Below are positions 168 to 25,555 of a stretch of DNA of 64,000 bases, one piece after another. Origin of the DNA: Actinomucor elegans (Eukaryota; Mucoromycota; Mucoromycetes; Mucorales; Mucoraceae); assembly GCA_026027325.1 (NCBI GenBank), contig JAMSLZ010000002.1, positions 62,001 to 126,000 of the forward strand. The letters run 5' to 3'. The notes below the pieces were generated by a model. It made no database searches and was not told the origin of the DNA. It worked only from the letters and a program-made list of their open reading frames with translations. Within the stretch, counting starts at the first letter, position 1. Each line of letters starts with the position of its first letter. A program made the position numbers and the translations under genes.

Positions 168-2051
168 ACTATAACCATAGAGAAATGTTTCTGTTGCTAT
201 AAAATTCTGAATTATAAAATCAGCTTAACACTACAATTCTTTTCAAATTATCAATTTGTTTGTCATTCCATGAAAATTAAAAATGTTCACAATTTGTGAA
301 CTTTTTATATTTTCTATTTCTTTAAAACAATTAGGATTTATTATATTTTGTGTAACACAAAATATTTATAAATCTGTCTATTAATAAAAAGTTCAAAAAA
401 AATAATTGATTTTACAATTTTGCTGACTAAGCAAAATATAAAATTAATAAATTTTAGAATTACTTCAAACTTTTCAAAATAAAAAATGTTTTCTAAAACA
501 TAATAATGTATATATATTATTATTAATTTTATTTTAAGTTATAAAAAATTGAATTTATCTCAATATAAAAAAGAACAAATGGATAATATTAATAATGTTA
601 AGGATACTTTATTAATGGAGTATCAGATTCTAACAAATGATTATTGGAAATTTTTAAATTATGGTTGGCCAGAGATTGAACAAAAAAAATATCACACTAA
701 AAAGATTATATCTATTAAAAAGATCAAAGAAATTAAAAAGATTTTATTAGAAAAGTTAGGAATAATACCTGTTTATTTCTTCCTAGTTATATTATTTGGA
801 GATAGAGATTATAGAGGACCATATAATAATATAGAAAAAGGCTTATTGATATTATATTTTATAGTAGAGAATATATCAATTGAAGATATGGATGATTATA
901 TATCAAAAAGTACTTTTCATCAAATATACAGACAATTTTATTCATCAGATAGAATGTTAAAATTAAATAAGATTTTAAGTTTTTCTTTACAAAACATGTT
1001 TTCAAATATAAAAATTAGACTTTTAAATGGAATGATAGAGAATCCAGATTTGTTTAATCAAGTAACAATACATTTAGACGGCCATGATAAAAGAGGTATG
1101 GTATATGGTGCAGAAGATAAATCCATATATTATAGTTACAAACTTAAAAAAATGGGTTTAGAACACAAGTTGCAATAGATACAAATGGTATGGTATTATT
1201 TGTATCAGACAGTCAACCATGTAGTACTAATAATGATGGATCTATGCTTATAAATATGAATATTGAAAATAAACTAAATTTGATGGATTGTATTGCATTA
1301 GATGGAGGATATAGCCTATACGTAGATAATATAATAAATAGTTCTGATCTAAATGACTATAACTTCGTATATCCTATCAGAAAAGATAAAAATATAAACT
1401 TAAATGAAATTGAAATAAATTATAACGATCAATTTGGAAGTTTTCGGTCTAAAATGGAAAAAACTTTCTCAGATTTGGGATGTATCTTTAAAAGATTAAA
1501 TAACAAAAAACCTTTTTTAACTACTAATATAAATATATATAATATTCAACTAAAAATTGCATGTGTCCTTTTTAATTTAAAAAAATATATTAAACTAAAC
1601 AATATAGAACATAGTGATTTTCATTCATATTGGATTAATGATAGCTTTGATTTTAAATACAAAAATGATATTTTGAATAATAATGAAAATTATAAATCAC
1701 TTCCAAAGTTAAATGAAAGAATAAACAATTTAGATAAAATGAAATTATTACAGCAACAATTTTTAGGATTAGAATTATCAAATATTGCTCATTTTAAAAA
1801 TAATAATATTTATAATAATGAGAAAATGGACTTGGAAATAGATATAGATAATAATGAAAGTTATGAAATTGAAACTATTTTGGATCATAAAGGGTTAATA
1901 GTCGAAGATAGTTATTACCTTGTGAAATGGCAAAACTACAGTGATGAGGATAATTCATGGATACATTACAGTAAATTTAATAGTTTTGATTGTATTAATA
2001 TATATTGGAATAGTAAGTAACTAATTTAAAATGTTATAGAAGACGGACATC
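157..2051 (+). mobile_element. AT-rich DDE transposon with chromodomain transposase (copy 1)
   Basis: The gene at 579-2020 is bracketed by an imperfect 19-bp inverted repeat, gatatccgtctactataac at 157-175 and its reverse complement with 17/19 matches at 2033-2051. I take these as terminal inverted repeats of a 1.9-kb element. No clear target-site duplication was found, and the long direct repeats just outside confuse the boundaries. Base composition is far more AT-rich than the gypsy and Tc1 sequences nearby, as in the Merlin elements of this window. Family: Harbinger/IS5-like DDE superfamily, inferred from motif layout. Confidence 0.6.
579..2020 (+). pseudogene. DDE (Harbinger/IS5-like) transposase with C-terminal chromodomain, one frameshift
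   Basis: Two overlapping open frames read as one transposase. The first part (579-1178) has a helical N-terminal region and ends with the first catalytic Asp in IHLDGHDKRG (codon 1077). A -1 shift at a run of seven A (1146-1152) restores the frame FRTQVAIDTNGMVLFVS. The second catalytic Asp is in CIALDGGY (codon 1301) and the catalytic Glu in RSKMEKTF (codon 1457), the D-D-E layout of DDE_Tnp_4 enzymes. The last 50 residues (about 1861-2011) are a chromodomain: YEIETILDH, YYLVKWQNYSDEDNSW and a C-terminal helix ending NIYW. All three aromatic-cage positions (Y, W, Y) are kept. The shift may be a decay lesion or slippage on poly-A. I know of no well-described DNA transposon family with this fusion. 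Copy 2 at 24672-25555 has the same order of domains. Confidence 0.8.
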
Positions 2052-2273: not shown

Positions 2274-4740
2274 CACAAACGCAAATCTTCAACTTTCTCC
2301 AGAAAAGATTGTACTTGCTCAGAAAAGTATTCACATTTTGGGTTGGTCAATTGTAGATGGTAAATTGATGCCTGATCCAAGAAAAGTATCAAATGTACAC
2401 ACCTGGCCTCTTCCTCAGACGGGTAAAGACATTATGCGATACTTGGGTTACTTCAATTACTTTCGTTCTGCGATTCCTGGATACAGTCGTTTAGCAGCTC
2501 CACTTGATGAGTTACGCAGTAGTAAATCACTTGCAGCTATATGGTCTGACAAACACACGCAAGCTTTTCGCAACTTGCAAGCAGCCTTGTCGTCTGCTCT
2601 CGTGTTATCTCCTCCTGACTTTCGTTACCGTTTCCATGTCGCAACTGACGCGTCTAAAACTGGTATTGGTGGAGTCATTTACTATATCAAAAATGATACG
2701 GTTCATTATGTGACTATGGCTTCTCGCAAGCTATCTACCTCCGAAATGAATTACAGTACAACAAAACGAGAATTACTTGCTATTGTCTACATGTTGACTA
2801 AGTATCATAAATGGTTATTTGGTATTAAATTCACTTTGCATACTGATCATAAAAGCCTTATCTTTTTACATGATCAAAGCACCCCCAACACCTTGATGCT
2901 GACTTGGTGGGACACTATTTTTTCTTTTACGTTCGATGTTGTTCATATTCCTGGAATTAAGAACATCATTCCCGATACTCTTAGTCGACTGTTTTCTGAT
3001 GACGAACCCAACAGTCTGGAGGAGGGTGGAAATATTGTTAACCATCAAAACATATTTGAGAACCATAAGAAAAGATATAATACCACGCGTTCTGAACGTA
3101 AACTGCAAATACGGTATCCTACAGATAAAAACAAGTCACGCAAAAGAATACTATCTGCTAGAAACGGGACTGAAAATAAAACAAGAGGAAATTACGCCTT
3201 TTCATCTTTCCCAACAGTTTCTACAAACTACGATGATAATACCAATACATCATCCAACCACATTGACTCATCCAATACTACATCGTTCGATAGTTACAAT
3301 AAGACACCTCTTATTTCTCGCGCAATGCAATATGCTGATTATATGACACCACCTGAAAAGGATCGCGTTTCTATTATTATGAAAGCACACTTGCTTGGCC
3401 ATTTTGGCGTAAATGCAATTGAGAAAACTATTCACAATGATTACAAATTACATTGGACTAATTTGCGACAAGACATTCAAAGAGTTATCAATGATTGTGA
3501 AGCTTGCCAAGCACATGGTATCTATCGAGTTGGTTATCACCCTCCTAGAAGCGTGTTGCCTGACGGTGTCTTCGATCATATCTGTATAGATCTCGGTGAT
3601 TTCAATACTACATCATCTCGTGGTAATAACTTTATGTTAGTTGTAGTAGATTACTTTAGTCGATTTACAATTCTACGTGCACTCCCTGACAAGAGTAGTT
3701 ACAGTGTAGCAAAAGAATTACTTCACATATGTTGTCAGTTCGGATTCCCTCGGATCATCACGCATGACAATGGTATGGAATTTGTGAATGAAGTGGTTAA
3801 ACAATTTATACAAATGAGTGGCATGGATAGACGGCTTAGCTTGCCCTATACTCCTACTGGAAACAGTGTAGTAGAAAGCTATGTTGGCATCTGTAAACGT
3901 AGTATTATCAAAGCGTTAACTGCTAATGCTGTTGAACCTGAATCTTGGGATTTGTATTTAGACGTGATCCAATACTCTGTCAATTGTCAGTATTCGCGAT
4001 TGCATAAATCTCGTCCTTTTGCGGTTATGTTCAATAGACAGCCTAATGACTTTATCGACTACACGGATGTAAAACCTACCATCAATATCGAGAAATCTGA
4101 TAGTAAACTCATTGATAAGAAGCTGAAATATGTCAAAGATGTCATTATTCCTTCTATTGCTAAACGCATTAAAGAGACACAATTAAACGATCATTTAAAA
4201 TTCCAAAAGAATAACAAGATCATTGAAACAAAGTACCCTCTTAATTCTAAAGTTATGATCGTGAACGTACTCAAATCATCTAAACTGCAGCCCAGATGGT
4301 TAGGTCCTTTTATCATTAAAGGCTACACCAAGCATGGTAGTTACATTTTAGAAGATCTCACTGGCTCTTTATTATCTCGTGATGTACCTACGCATCAGAT
4401 AAGACTGATTCAATCAGGAGATCAACGATCTGAAAGCGAACTTAACGAGAAACGTTATGAGGTACAAGCAATTGTAAACCATCGACTCTTGCCAGACGGT
4501 GAATACGAGTATTACGTGCATTGGGTTGGATACGATGACCAAGAAAAATACAATACTTGGCAGACGGTTGATACCTTCGATTCGAAGAAACCTATTCAAG
4601 ACTATTGGACACGTCGTCAAGCAACCATTGCAAGCACAACAAGTAGATCCCTGCCTAATACTATCAACAAGCGAAGAATACCTGCTCGTAATAAACACAG
4701 CAGATCGTTTGTACCTAAAGCATATAATACAAGATCTTGA
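2269..4740 (+). CDS. Ty3/gypsy chromovirus pol, 3' part (RT thumb, RNase H, integrase, chromodomain)
   Basis: The frame is open from 2269 with no own start codon, because the upstream reverse transcriptase is cut off by the repeat/transposon junction. In order: RT end and connection (ANLQLSPEKI, YLGYFNYFRS), RNase H (ATDASKTGIGGVIYY, LHTDHKSLIF), integrase zinc-binding region (GHFGVNAIEK to CEACQAHG), integrase core with Asp in ICIDLGDF, Asp in THDNGMEF and Glu in PTGNSVVESY, then a C-terminal chromodomain (YEVQAIVNHR, YYVHWVGYDDQEKYNTW, IQDYW). This order and a terminal chromodomain define chromoviruses. The frame is intact to the stop at 4740. A second copy at 20496-21946 is about 99% identical by eye over the shared integrase region, so the family moved recently. 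Confidence 0.92.
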   Translation, partial: RLTNANLQLSPEKIVLAQKSIHILGWSIVDGKLMPDPRKVSNVHTWPLPQTGKDIMRYLGYFNYFRSAIPGYSRLAAPLDELRSSKSLAAIWSDKHTQAFRNLQAALSSALVLSPPDFRYRFHVATDASKTGIGGVIYYIKNDTVHYVTMASRKLSTSEMNYSTTKRELLAIVYMLTKYHKWLFGIKFTLHTDHKSLIFLHDQSTPNTLMLTWWDTIFSFTFDVVHIPGIKNIIPDTLSRLFSDDEPNSLEEGGNIVNHQNIFENHKKRYNTTRSERKLQIRYPTDKNKSRKRILSARNGTENKTRGNYAFSSFPTVSTNYDDNTNTSSNHIDSSNTTSFDSYNKTPLISRAMQYADYMTPPEKDRVSIIMKAHLLGHFGVNAIEKTIHNDYKLHWTNLRQDIQRVINDCEACQAHGIYRVGYHPPRSVLPDGVFDHICIDLGDFNTTSSRGNNFMLVVVDYFSRFTILRALPDKSSYSVAKELLHICCQFGFPRIITHDNGMEFVNEVVKQFIQMSGMDRRLSLPYTPTGNSVVESYVGICKRSIIKALTANAVEPESWDLYLDVIQYSVNCQYSRLHKSRPFAVMFNRQPNDFIDYTDVKPTINIEKSDSKLIDKKLKYVKDVIIPSIAKRIKETQLNDHLKFQKNNKIIETKYPLNSKVMIVNVLKSSKLQPRWLGPFIIKGYTKHGSYILEDLTGSLLSRDVPTHQIRLIQSGDQRSESELNEKRYEVQAIVNHRLLPDGEYEYYVHWVGYDDQEKYNTWQTVDTFDSKKPIQDYWTRRQATIASTTSRSLPNTINKRRIPARNKHSRSFVPKAYNTRS

Positions 4741-8768: not shown

Positions 8769-9272
8769 TGTTGTATTCCACCTACTATTTTGCATCGACA
8801 TAATAGTAAGGAATCAACTGTTCATTTATGTCATACACGGACTCTATCTGATAACCCAATCAGATTAACGAGGCCTGCATAAATACAAGCGATGTGTCAT
8901 CCTTAGAACTATTAGCCAATAATCCTTACAAGAAACACGCGGCATCATACTATCGAGTAGTATCGAGTGTATCTCAAGATAAGACCTGAATATCGAATAA
9001 CGCGTGGGTTATACAATTACAACAATGCGTGGTTGAAAGGCTTATTAGTGGCTGCTGGGATTGGACTCCGTTGTACGGCCATGCGTGCTGATAGATATTG
9101 AATGCTACACTATTAAGCTCTGATGAAATGTATATAAAGAAGACTTGATTTTGAATTGTGAATAAAACATTAGAATAACTTTTACTATCAGGATAGCTGA
9201 TTCCATTTACTGTCTATTCTTTTATTATTGTATTTTAAATTATATCCTTCGTCTTTAGCACCGGATATAACA
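8769..9272 (+). repeat. solo LTR, family 1, with TSD TTCAC
   Basis: 504 bp, the same as the LTR at 4954-5457. It is flanked by TTCAC at 8764-8768 and 9273-9277. With the LTR and one duplication removed, the transposase reads KSFSPLRGTIF across the join, so insertion and LTR-LTR recombination left the frame otherwise intact. Confidence 0.95.
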
Positions 9273-9875
9273 TTCACCATTACGTGGAACCATATTTTCT
9301 AAAATGAAATTACCATTAAATATACAATTACATCTTTTAAATTATTATATATTAAAAATGCCAAATAGTAGTATTGCTACTACATTAAAAATATCAAATA
9401 ATACAGTAACAAATTATAATAGAATATTTAGAAAATATATAAAAGATAAAATTAATTTTAGTAGAAATTTTAAAATTGGTGGTAGAAATAAAATTGTTGA
9501 AATAGATGAAACTAAAATAGCCAAAAGAAAATATAATAAAGGACATATAGTTGAAGGTGGTTGGGTAATTGGAGGCATTGAAAGGAGTATATTAAAAAAC
9601 AAAATGAAAAATGAAAATAAAAAGATATTTTTATTACCAATCAAAGAAAGAAATATTAATAATATAGATTTAATTATAAAAAAATATGTTAAAAAAGGTA
9701 CCACTATATATACAGATTGTTGGAAAGGATATAATAATTTAAGAAATATAGGATATAAGCATAAAACAGTTAATCATAAAAAATATTTTAAAGATCCAAT
9801 AACAGGTGTACATACAAATACAATCGAAGGTACATGGTGTGCATTAAAACAAAGTATTGTACCAAGAAATAGAAC

Positions 9876-10381
9876 TGTTGTAAAGGTGGTAGATAAAGAT
9901 TTTGGAAGATAGAAATACTTTTAAAACTGTGGATAGTTTTTTATTATAGATCAAGAATTGATTCACTGGTCAAAAGGTGATAAAACGCATCTCTTATATA
10001 CTTTTTCTCGATCGGCACTTGATTCTAAATTCATATTACGATTTGCCAGGAACAAGGTTGGACTGCGTATAAAGAAGACCAGGGATAATAACCAAATGAG
10101 CGGACCAAGATTAGCGGCGAGGAGTGTCGGGATCATTATATCCAAAGGTAATAGTATTGAATGTAATATTTGGTGTGAGAGATAGTATTTATCAATTAGC
10201 GTCTACTTGCTCAGAGTGATATATAAATAAAGATATTTTAACATAATCAAATACAGTCATTTACATTCTGGTTCTTGGTAATAATGCTTTATACACTTCT
10301 GCAGCTATATATAAGGATATCTATACGATTTTCTATCTGTACAGTATTCTCTTATTAATATAATTATGAGCGTTTACAACA
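9876..10381 (+). repeat. solo LTR, family 2, with TSD AGAAC
   Basis: 506 bp, beginning TGTTGTAAAGGTGG and ending GCGTTTACAACA, flanked by AGAAC at 9871-9875 and 10382-10386. A second full-length copy in reverse is at 26249-26757. Transcription direction is not certain. The 75-codon frame inside it (9958-10185) has its counterpart in the other copy but matches no protein I know and is probably incidental. Confidence 0.93.
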
Positions 10382-20260: not shown

Positions 20261-20475
20261 ATTATTGACTGGAAACCACTACTATTATACAATTTACCCA
20301 TAATAATATTGAAGGAAAACCCTTAATATTATAGTATTTACCCATAATATTATCGAATAAGAGTCACTAATATTATCAACCGCCGAAAAAACACTGCCTA
20401 GAAATTGACAATAATTATTAGCAGAACTATAGTCGATTTTACCCCTAATATTATCAACTTTTGGGCAAAAAACCG
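20261..20475. repeat. right subterminal repeat region of CACTA element
   Basis: TAATATTAT occurs at 20324, 20345, 20368 and 20446, mostly in the context (cc/ca)(c/t)taatattatc. Tttaccc(a/c)taat occurs three times. The spacing of 20-80 bp ends directly at the terminal repeat. Confidence 0.7.
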
Positions 20476-20495
20476 ACAATATTTTCGCCATAGTG

Positions 20496-21946
20496 ATAGT
20501 TACAATAAGACACCTCTTATTTCTCGCGCAATGCAATATGCTGATTATATGACACCACCTGAAAAGGATCGCGTTTCTATTATTATGAAAGCACACTTGC
20601 TTGGCCATTTTGGCGTAAATGCAATTGAGAAAACTATTCACAATGATTACAAATTACATTGGACTAATTTGCGACAAGACATTCAAAGAGTTATCAATGA
20701 TTGTGAAGCTTGCCAAGCACATGGTATCTATCGAGTTGGTTATCACCCTCCTAGAAGCGTGTTGCCTGACGGTGTCTTCGATCATATCTGTATAGATCTC
20801 GGTGATTTCAATACTACATCATCTCGTGGTAATAACTTTATGTTAGTTGTAGTAGATTACTTTAGTCGATTTACAATTCTACGTGCACTTCCTGACAAGA
20901 GTAGTTACAGTGTAGCAAAAGAATTACTTCACATATGTTGTCAGTTCGGATTCCCTCGGATCATCACGCATGACAATGGTATGGAATTTGTGAATGAAGT
21001 GGTTAAACAATTTATACAAATGAGTGGCATGGATAGACGGCTTAGCTTGCCCTATACTCCTACTGGAAACAGTGTAGTAGAAAGCTATGTTGGCATCTGT
21101 AAACGTAGTATCATCAAAGCGTTAACTGCTAATGCTGTTGAACCTGAATCTTGGGATTTGTATTTAGACGTGATCCAATACTCTGTCAATTGTCAGTATT
21201 CGCGATTGCATAAATCTCGTCCTTTTGCGGTTATGTTCAATAGACAGCCTAATGACTTTATCGACTACACGGATGTAAAACCTACCATCAATATCGAGAA
21301 ATCTGATAGTAAACTCATTGATAAGAAGTTGAAATATGTCAAAGATGTCATTATTCCTTCTATTGCTAAACGCATTAAAGAGACACAATTAAACGATCAT
21401 TTAAAATTCCAAAAGAATAACAAGATCATTGAAACAAAGTACCCTCTTAATTCTAAAGTTATGATCGTGAACGTACTCAAATCATCTAAACTGCAACCCA
21501 GATGGTTAGGTCCTTTTATCATTAAAGGCTACACCAAGCATGGTAGTTACATTTTAGAAGATCTCACTGGCTCTTTATTATCTCGTGATGTACCTACGCA
21601 TCAGATAAGACTGATTCAATCAGGAGATCAACGATCTGAAAGCGAACTTAACGAGAAACATTATGAGGTACAAGCAATTGTAAACCATCGACTCTTGCCA
21701 GACGGTGAATACGAGTATTACGTGCATTGGGTTGGATACGATGACCAAGAAAAATACAATACTTGGCAGACGGTTGATACCTTCGATTCGAAGAAACCTA
21801 TTCAAGAATATTGGACACGTCGTCAAGCAACCATTGCAAGCACAACAGGTAGATCCCTGCCTAATACTATCAACAAGCGAAGAATACCTGCTCGTAATAA
21901 ACACAGCAGATCGTTTGTACCTAAAGCATATAATACAAGATCTTGA
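20496..21946 (+). CDS. chromovirus integrase with chromodomain, 5'-truncated copy 2
   Basis: It matches 3290-4740 with only a handful of substitutions, including Arg to His in NEKRYEV and Asp to Glu in IQDYW. The integrase core residues (ICIDLGDF, THDNGMEF, TGNSVVESY) and the chromodomain are intact. The frame opens inside the neighbouring CACTA terminal repeat, so the apparent upstream start at 20405 is not a retrotransposon sequence. RT and RNase H are missing. Confidence 0.9.
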
Positions 21947-24455: not shown

Positions 24456-24652
24456 TGTTATAGGTCTATGTTCTAGATATATATCCATCTGAGACATGAA
24501 TCTTAAACATATCAACTCATAAGTGATTCCGTAAAGATGAGATTGATAATGAATAAGTTATTATTCATACAATAGTCTCTATTCTATAACACACAGTCTC
24601 AAAAAGTACTCTTTTTAGTCTTCTTTATTATTTCACTGTGCAAACACAACAG
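24292..24652. repeat. second inverted repeat overlapping the palindrome
   Basis: The spacer sequence tgttgtgtttgcacagtgaa... to agtactttttgagactgtg (24292-24350) recurs inverted at about 24595-24652. So two inverted-repeat pairs interlock. The inner part includes the DIRS-like block gataatgaataagttattatt (24548). Confidence 0.8.
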
Positions 24653-24671
24653 TTTAAATACTCAATTTATC

Positions 24672-25555
24672 ATAGATTGTAATAATATATGTGTTTATAT
24701 ATCTAATTCTTTACCTTGTAAGATGAATAATGATGATAATATGTTTTTAGATATTAAATTAAATAAATTTTTAAAAGATACAGATTGTATTTGCTTTGAT
24801 GGTTTATACGAAAATACTGTAAATGAAGTAATTGATAAATATCAAAATATAGGTTTACCTATAAGTATTAATAATTTTTGTTTTCCTATAAAAAAGGAAA
24901 AAGAAATTGATTTAAAATTAGATGAAAAAAATTATAATAAACAATTATCTTCATTCAGATCTACTATAGAAACATATTTTGCCAATTTTGGGAAAAAATT
25001 TAAAAGGTTTGATGCGCAACATAAAATTAGAATAACAGATAATAATTTATATAATATACAATTAAAATTAGCAATTGTTTTATTAAATATTAAAGAATTT
25101 ACAAATATTGCCAATATAAATGAATCAGAATATCATAAAAAATGGGTAGAAGAAAATTATAATTTTATGTTTTTAGACCCTAATATTCAAGATATAAATG
25201 AAAATAATCTTTCATATAAAACTCAATATAAATTAGATAATATAAATAATATAAAAAATCATCAAAATAATATATTAAACGGATTAATATTATCAATAAA
25301 TAATGATATGGTATTAGATGAAAATGTTAAAAATAATATACTTGATATACTCCAAAAAAAGATGAAAATAAAGAAAAAAATGATAAAACTTATGAATTAC
25401 AATATATTATAAAACATAGAGGAAATATAGAAGATAGAGAATATTATGTGAAATGGAGAAATTATAGTAAAAATTATAATAGTTGGGTTAAAGAATGTGA
25501 ATTTGTAAACAAAGATATAATAGATAATTATTGGGATACTATTAATATTGAATAA
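24672..25555 (+). pseudogene. DDE transposase with chromodomain, 5'-truncated copy 2
   Basis: Homology to copy 1 starts at about 24672 (IDCNNICVYISNSLPC against IDTNGMVLFVSDSQPC), so the true frame begins upstream of the ATG at 24723. The second catalytic Asp is in CICFDGLY (codon 24798) and the Glu in RSTIETYF (codon 24969). The first Asp is lost with the 5' end. After a frameshift in the A-rich stretch at about 25357-25390, the frame gives a chromodomain: TYELQYIIKHRG, REYYVKWRNYSKNYNSW, IIDNYW, stop at 25553. Cage residues Y, W, Y are kept. The protein is clearly diverged from copy 1, yet the domain order is the same. Confidence 0.8.

Follow-up and report, generated by a model that had tools for sequence, protein, structure and literature searches.

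A transposable element of 2338 bp lies at the left end of a 64,000-bp stretch, here called the window, of the Actinomucor elegans genome (36.5 Mb; bases 62001-126000 of contig C12). The element is on the forward strand; it starts 66 bp before the first base of the window and ends at position 2272. Open frames and locus comparison divide it into a left long terminal direct repeat (LTDR1, 232 bp, G000:C12:61935-62166, of which positions 1-166 fall in the window), an internal region (INT, 167-2041) with a single long gene, and a right repeat (LTDR2, 231 bp, 2042-2272). LTDR1 ends in GATATCCGTC; LTDR2 begins with GACGGACATC and also ends in GATATCCGTC, positions 1-166 and 2042-2272 being direct copies of one repeat. 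The element interrupts a gypsy retrotransposon, which continues beyond the TCA at 2273-2275. Flank comparison and empty sites identify this TCA as the right copy of a 3-bp target duplication, the left copy of which lies just outside LTDR1, before the window start. The single gene encodes a DDE transposase with a C-terminal chromodomain, as had been proposed in a preliminary description of the locus that did not mention the 232/231-bp direct repeats bounding the transposing unit.

Results

The gene within INT starts with ATG at 579 and stops at 2018-2020. It is carried by two overlapping open frames (507-1178 and 1148-2020), the first of which is left between 1148 and 1178, so the window copy is broken. 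By open frames and codon check, the first frame of the gene (579-1178) encodes a helical N-terminal part and the first catalytic Asp (1077-1079); the second encodes the rest of the DDE_Tnp_4 core (Asp 1301-1303, Glu 1457-1459), a disordered linker, the chromodomain (1862-2008) and the stop. No Pfam domain was found in the first frame. The second frame alone matches DDE_Tnp_4 (PF13359, E 1.4e-7) and Chromo (PF00385, E 3.6e-7), and an intact copy elsewhere in the genome (L003) gives 3e-10 and 2.4e-7, all above the curated cut-offs, which places the core inside the DDE transposases. Apart from this gene, the window element contains no complete open reading frame (ORF) longer than 65 codons (ORFs of at least 50 amino acids were examined).

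The codons GAC 1077, GAT 1301 and GAA 1457 encode D, D and E, exactly where the preliminary description had placed the triad; the equivalents in L003 are D167, D242 and E294. In an alignment of 110 rows, made up of eight representatives from this genome and 102 of the 120 relatives listed from a profile search (below), both Asp are present in 110/110 and the Glu in 109/110, with one gap. The aromatic cage of the chromodomain, predicted earlier to be complete, is formed by Y1862-1864, W1928-1930 and Y1937-1939, and is conserved as Y/F in 95, W in 94 and Y/F/W in 94 of the rows. Exact matches to the second frame occur 19 times in the genome, the window copy included, and 11 of these are inside open frames of 504-522 amino acids. 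Based on profile matches and alignment, a genuine, conserved and HP1-like chromodomain, predicted to read methylated histone H3, is supported.

Genome searches gave a family of such elements, family A, to which the window copy belongs. The totals that follow are lower bounds, as 135 of 378 candidates were scored in the protein search and 40 of 111 in the second search that underlies the LTDR evidence. Family A has 19 loci of identical protein, comparison of which gives a unit of 2338-2340 bp with LTDRs of 231-232 bp at both ends. Each LTDR bears its own short inverted ends, the repeat ends being GAC...GTC within longer inverted ends. Pattern searches with these ends found 61 left and 59 right ends, giving 56 complete repeats, among which there was no tandem chain or multimer. 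Eighteen pairs are spaced 2104-2108 bp apart; on inspection, the remaining repeats are three pairs spread by nested insertions (6 repeats), 3 in damaged copies and 11 solo. Target duplications of 3 bp flank 12/14 complete copies with clean ends and 10/11 solo repeats; the other five loci (L001, L004, L006, L010 and L011), being nested or truncated, do not contain both ends in full. All 22 duplications start with T or C and only two are TWA. The 14 complete copies differ at 10 variable columns in 2340, indicating recent amplification.

The window flanks, joined with a single TCA, form a 39-base sequence with 27 mismatch-free occurrences in the genome. The right flank reads on into the gypsy polyprotein, and these empty sites are therefore taken to be uninterrupted copies of the target element. 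Comparable tests with flanks chosen for not being AT-rich gave 23 exact empty sites for family E, 24 for family G and 5 for family D (49 at up to 3 mismatches); all four tested sites are in multi-copy sequence. The mobile entity is therefore repeat-gene-repeat, and neither the gene alone nor the gypsy. Comparison of flanks and empty sites shows that repeats and gene are inserted jointly, with a target duplication of 3 bp, or of 4 bp for two copies outside family A. The flanks of single repeats likewise show that some repeats stand alone between 3-bp duplications of their own.

The genome search also gave numerous more distant matches (35-43% identity), a good number of which extend over the chromodomain. 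Among them are seven further families, B-H, at 35-41% identity, whose proteins of 467-502 amino acids end in a chromodomain; pairwise identity among the eight family representatives is 32-50%. The eight align end to end, with D167, D242, E294, Y429 and W451 invariant, the triad intact and both PF13359 and Chromo above the Pfam cut-offs in 8/8. Paired direct repeats are found in 7/8 families (~282 bp in family B; ~220-400 bp and 97.8-100% identical within a copy in families D, E, F, G and H), and no clear homology was found between the LTDRs of different families. Family H has one copy only (L050). The repeat ends outside family A are GAG, GAA or GGA ... CTC, ATC, GTC or TCC. At the outer ends, the target duplication is 3 bp in 19 of 21 copies of families B-H and 4 bp in the other two; the 21 do not include B L030-L032 and C L035, which are rearranged, internally deleted or truncated. 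TWA accounts for 2/19 of the three-base duplications, others seen being TTG, CTT, CAG, TAT, TAG, CAT, TCA, ACT, AAA, ATT, TAC and so on. Family C is a 3064-bp unit with 3-bp duplications and two adjacent blocks, each with ~200-bp inverted repeats (L036:444-3509, L037 and L038). Direct repeats are thus not obligatory.

The two repeats of a pair appear to vary in concert. Three copies of family F illustrate this: L045 is distinguished from L033 and L046 by the same four single bases in both the left and the right repeat, and by five other single bases in the internal region. This co-change, together with near-identical pairs in seven divergent families, calls for some process that keeps the pairs alike, which could be recombination between the repeats or an intermediate with one repeat.

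A possible insertion hot spot was also observed. The end of one L003 (family A) flank and the point at which L047 (family G) is inserted are no more than 2 bp apart, and L044 (family E) is ~35 bp away; the three sites are in different copies of one repeated sequence, of which 23-24 copies are empty, some of them arrayed on C22 at a spacing of 4.87 kb. The other side of L003 shows no matching duplication.

The profile search of protein databases found 231 related proteins. According to precomputed Pfam annotation, 103 of the 120 listed carry both domains and 17 lack the chromodomain. Named relatives among those listed are from Lobosporangium, Mortierella, Entomortierella, Dissophora, Linnemannia, Gamsiella, Apophysomyces, Cunninghamella and Rhizomucor, all genera of the Mucoromycota in the broad sense. 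The 11 open frames in this genome, the seven further families and the 103 relatives with both domains indicate that the fusion is not a chance junction. A profile of this family's chromodomain recognised the domain in 98 of the 110 rows; some of the other 12 are probably truncated. In a quick-search tree of the same rows, rooted at the midpoint, nine relatives without a chromodomain (P0090, P0106, P0108, P0112, P0113, P0114, P0116, P0117 and P0120, most of which end in a basic tail) form one clade (SH-aLRT 100). The position of this clade, among rows that bear the domain, suggests a loss, or a root elsewhere. One relative from Cunninghamella blakesleeana (P0062, 641 amino acids) has a retroviral-protease domain (PF00077) before the transposase and chromodomain, maybe as a gene-prediction fusion.

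The family B unit holds a second gene beside the transposase, an ORF of 556 amino acids (L033:754-2421, minus strand); it is uninterrupted in L033, while in L034 a family E element is inserted in it. The gene has 18 matches in this genome at 95-100% identity. For its protein, 107 relatives were found (E up to 0.001), those with an organism name being from Mucoromycota, and no Pfam match at E up to 10. Two Rhizomucor gene models join proteins of this type to the domains described above: P0207 consists of a transposase, a chromodomain that falls slightly short of the Pfam cut-off (3.4e-5) and a 556-amino-acid-type protein, and P0166 of a chromodomain joined to such a protein. The predicted structure (pLDDT 93.8) resembles TBP-like tandem folds and, weakly, rolling-circle initiators. 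The model thus offers a lead that the partner gene of family B might encode a protein like a rolling-circle initiator.

Elsewhere in the window, comparison and Pfam identified a decayed second member of the group (24642-25543, forward strand), which keeps a portion of the DDE domain and, in a different frame, a chromodomain. It is 50-55% identical to families D, E and F; seven LTDRs were looked for next to it, and none was present. The gypsy pol region occurs twice, at 2276-4740 (with a C-terminal chromodomain by Pfam) and at 20402-21946, and in families B, F and H the part of the protein around the chromodomain aligns with each of the two copies at 31-45% over 64-90 amino acids. On this resemblance, the transposase chromodomain may have been taken from a gypsy element, or both may derive from an HP1-like gene.

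The window also contains a damaged IS1595/ISXO2-like transposase (9271-9912), a relative of which, from L043, has 134 matches in the genome; this transposon, which has no chromodomain, served as the control for genomic distribution. Clustering was computed from 130/151 match rows for the chromodomain elements and 97/134 for the control, omitting the shortest matches and additional fragments of a copy already counted, and on contigs of known length (123 elements, 94 controls and 26/27 gypsy sites). A neighbour of the same kind lies within 50 kb for 113/123 chromodomain elements (random mean 37.5) and for 70/94 controls (random mean 22.5), and 74/94 controls are in 100-kb bins also occupied by chromodomain elements. 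The location of the elements in transposon islands and at multi-copy sites would fit life in heterochromatin.

Discussion

The window copy very probably represents a recently active PF13359 DDE DNA transposon with an LTDR-INT-LTDR build, a reading that includes the following course of transposition. The transposase would pair the outermost ends (GAC...GTC) of the two repeats, cut by means of the D-D-E site and carry out strand transfer with a 3-bp stagger. Solo repeats could arise by use of the inner ends or by recombination between repeats, and the pair could be kept alike by recombination or gene conversion between its members or through a circular intermediate with one repeat. By analogy with HP1, the chromodomain, held by the linker at the C-terminus, would bind methylated H3 (H3K9me) and, as chromovirus integrases do, would tether the transposition complex to transposon-rich heterochromatin.

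Several observations weigh against this reading. The window copy is itself frame-broken, L003 and L005 of family A lack a target duplication, and family C, whose protein is of the same type, is built of inverted-repeat blocks rather than direct repeats. The concerted change of repeats comes from one family and three copies only. Twelve of the 110 aligned rows have no recognisable chromodomain, so the domain is dispensable in at least one clade, and the clustering is not specific to the chromodomain elements, as the IS1595-like control also clusters. The proposals on transposition, excision and histone binding are all drawn from sequence.

The nearby gypsy raises the question of whether the fusion is a frame-joining artefact, a DDE relic beside the chromodomain of the adjoining element, since the window copy lies in two frames and is followed by a gypsy with a chromodomain of its own (frame to 4740). 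This is refuted: D1301, E1457 and the chromodomain share one open frame (1148-2020), most exact copies of that frame lie inside full-length open frames, and the gypsy carries a separate chromodomain, whereas the transposon unit has its own repeats and target duplication. The origin from an adjoining retrotransposon that the preliminary description had considered does not hold for the relatives either, as those lacking the domain are a minority that, in the quick midpoint-rooted tree, lies among those with it. A chance composite, in which two copies of a miniature inverted-repeat transposable element (MITE) landed on either side of a transposase gene, would account for solo repeats with their own duplications, which look exactly MITE-like. 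It is largely refuted and very improbable, because the window copy has no inner matching duplication (TAC after LTDR1, GAA before LTDR2, TCA outside), because the repeat pair moves as a unit, as the 18 pairs and the empty sites indicate, and because the build recurs in 7/8 families with repeats of no clear mutual homology. An equally improbable origin is a non-autonomous long terminal repeat (LTR) retrotransposon, like the terminal-repeat retrotransposons in miniature (TRIM) or large retrotransposon derivatives (LARD), with a captured transposase gene and true LTRs copied in trans by gypsy reverse transcriptase. The near-identical repeats, the solo repeats, the concerted changes in family F and the abundance of gypsy sequence (27 matching sites) would agree with it. 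The repeat ends, however, are GAC...GTC inside longer inverted ends and not TG...CA, the target duplication is 3 bp, and a primer-binding site or polypurine tract was not evident by eye in a brief look at the 14 bases adjoining the repeats. The unit proteins score above the Pfam cut-off for DDE_Tnp_4 and Chromo only, and no reverse transcriptase, RNase H, protease or retroviral-type integrase was found among them. The sole gene is that of a DDE transposase, the triad of which is intact in all eight representatives, as expected if the transposase acts on the element.

The role of the chromodomain is less certain. It is quite possible that the domain does not steer insertion and has another role (multimer contact, nuclear retention or regulation) or is neutral, the clustering being due to selection against insertions near genes. 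The control without a chromodomain, which clusters and shares the islands, and the chromodomain-less clade of relatives are in favour of this; the conservation of the cage across divergent families and the somewhat stronger clustering of the chromodomain elements are against it, although copy number and age differ between the two kinds of transposon. A broader proposal, which we regard as speculative and rather unlikely, is that of a distinct DDE lineage throughout the Mucoromycota with an independent LTR-like lifestyle, in which repeats would be renewed in pairs during transposition or between rounds of it, insertion would be steered to transposon-rich heterochromatin by the chromodomain, and the partner gene of family B (weakly rolling-circle-initiator-like) might have a part in copying the element or renewing its repeats.

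The element offers a counterpart to the chromoviruses among DNA transposons, in which steering by a chromodomain can be tested directly for a transposase and not for a retroviral-type integrase alone; it is 2.3 kb long and has one gene, and its copies are near-identical and apparently recent. How repeat pairs are kept alike when no reverse transcription is involved also becomes open to study in a fungus with a small genome. Repeat finders that call LTRs from any direct terminal repeats would probably misfile such elements.

Chromoviruses resemble these elements in having a DDE enzyme that ends in a chromodomain, terminal repeats in direct orientation and transposon-rich surroundings. Unlike chromoviruses, the target duplication of which is about 5 bp, the present elements duplicate 3 bp, have GAC...GTC ends and a transposase of another DDE family, and the protease, reverse transcriptase and RNase H were not found in the unit. 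Maverick/Polinton elements are large and bear a polymerase and a retroviral-type integrase. The likeness to them lies in being DNA elements with a DDE enzyme and a chromodomain, while size and gene content differ; the integrase of chromoviruses and Mavericks is reported to carry a chromodomain at its C-terminus (PMC10799480).

The DDE_Tnp_4 catalytic domain, the short inverted ends and the 3-bp target duplication resemble those of PIF/Harbinger and IS5-like elements. The target sequence of PIF/Harbinger is TWA (TAA/TTA), and its second gene encodes a Myb/SANT-like DNA-binding protein. The present elements differ in duplications that are seldom TWA, in the long direct terminal repeats and in the chromodomain, and there is no Myb-like second gene in the window element, nor does the second gene of family B match Pfam. 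The Harbinger/IS5-like affiliation in the preliminary description is thus borne out by the catalytic domain and the mostly 3-bp duplication, and the target sequence makes the elements not strictly Harbinger. Groups with TNA or ANT targets are mentioned within the PIF/Harbinger superfamily in one report (PMC12477816). Neither the chromodomain fusion nor the LTDR architecture was found for PF13359 elements in the available portions of the literature searched. A relative is entered in one database source as 'Chromo domain/DDE superfamily endonuclease', so the fusion has already been seen by annotation. The lineage is real and recently active, and apparently undescribed.

The closest parallel in architecture is KolobokP (Kojima & Bao 2022, PMC9587614), which its authors describe as having long terminal direct repeats and as being in this 'unlike any other DNA transposons'; each of its repeats carries inverted ends, and solo repeats are frequent. 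Both kinds of element have the LTDR-INT-LTDR build, inverted ends belonging to each repeat, common solo repeats and a DDD/E transposase in INT. KolobokP, as portrayed there, belongs to the Kolobok superfamily, occurs in seven animal phyla, and has repeats of ~450 or 660 bp, a His-Me finger nuclease and multimers, whereas the present elements are fungal, have a PF13359 transposase, repeats of ~220-400 bp, a mostly 3-bp duplication and a C-terminal chromodomain. The Pfam assignment is to DDE_Tnp_4 and not to a Kolobok-type transposase; the window element has a single gene, and the Pfam scans of the unit proteins revealed no nuclease family and hence no His-Me finger nuclease gene. In the excerpts consulted, the LTDR build was found described for only one other group of DNA transposons, the animal KolobokP, with no mention there of a chromodomain. 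With the elements described here, this composite-like build of paired direct repeats occurs a second time among the superfamilies of eukaryotic DNA transposons, which suggests that the build is repeatable.
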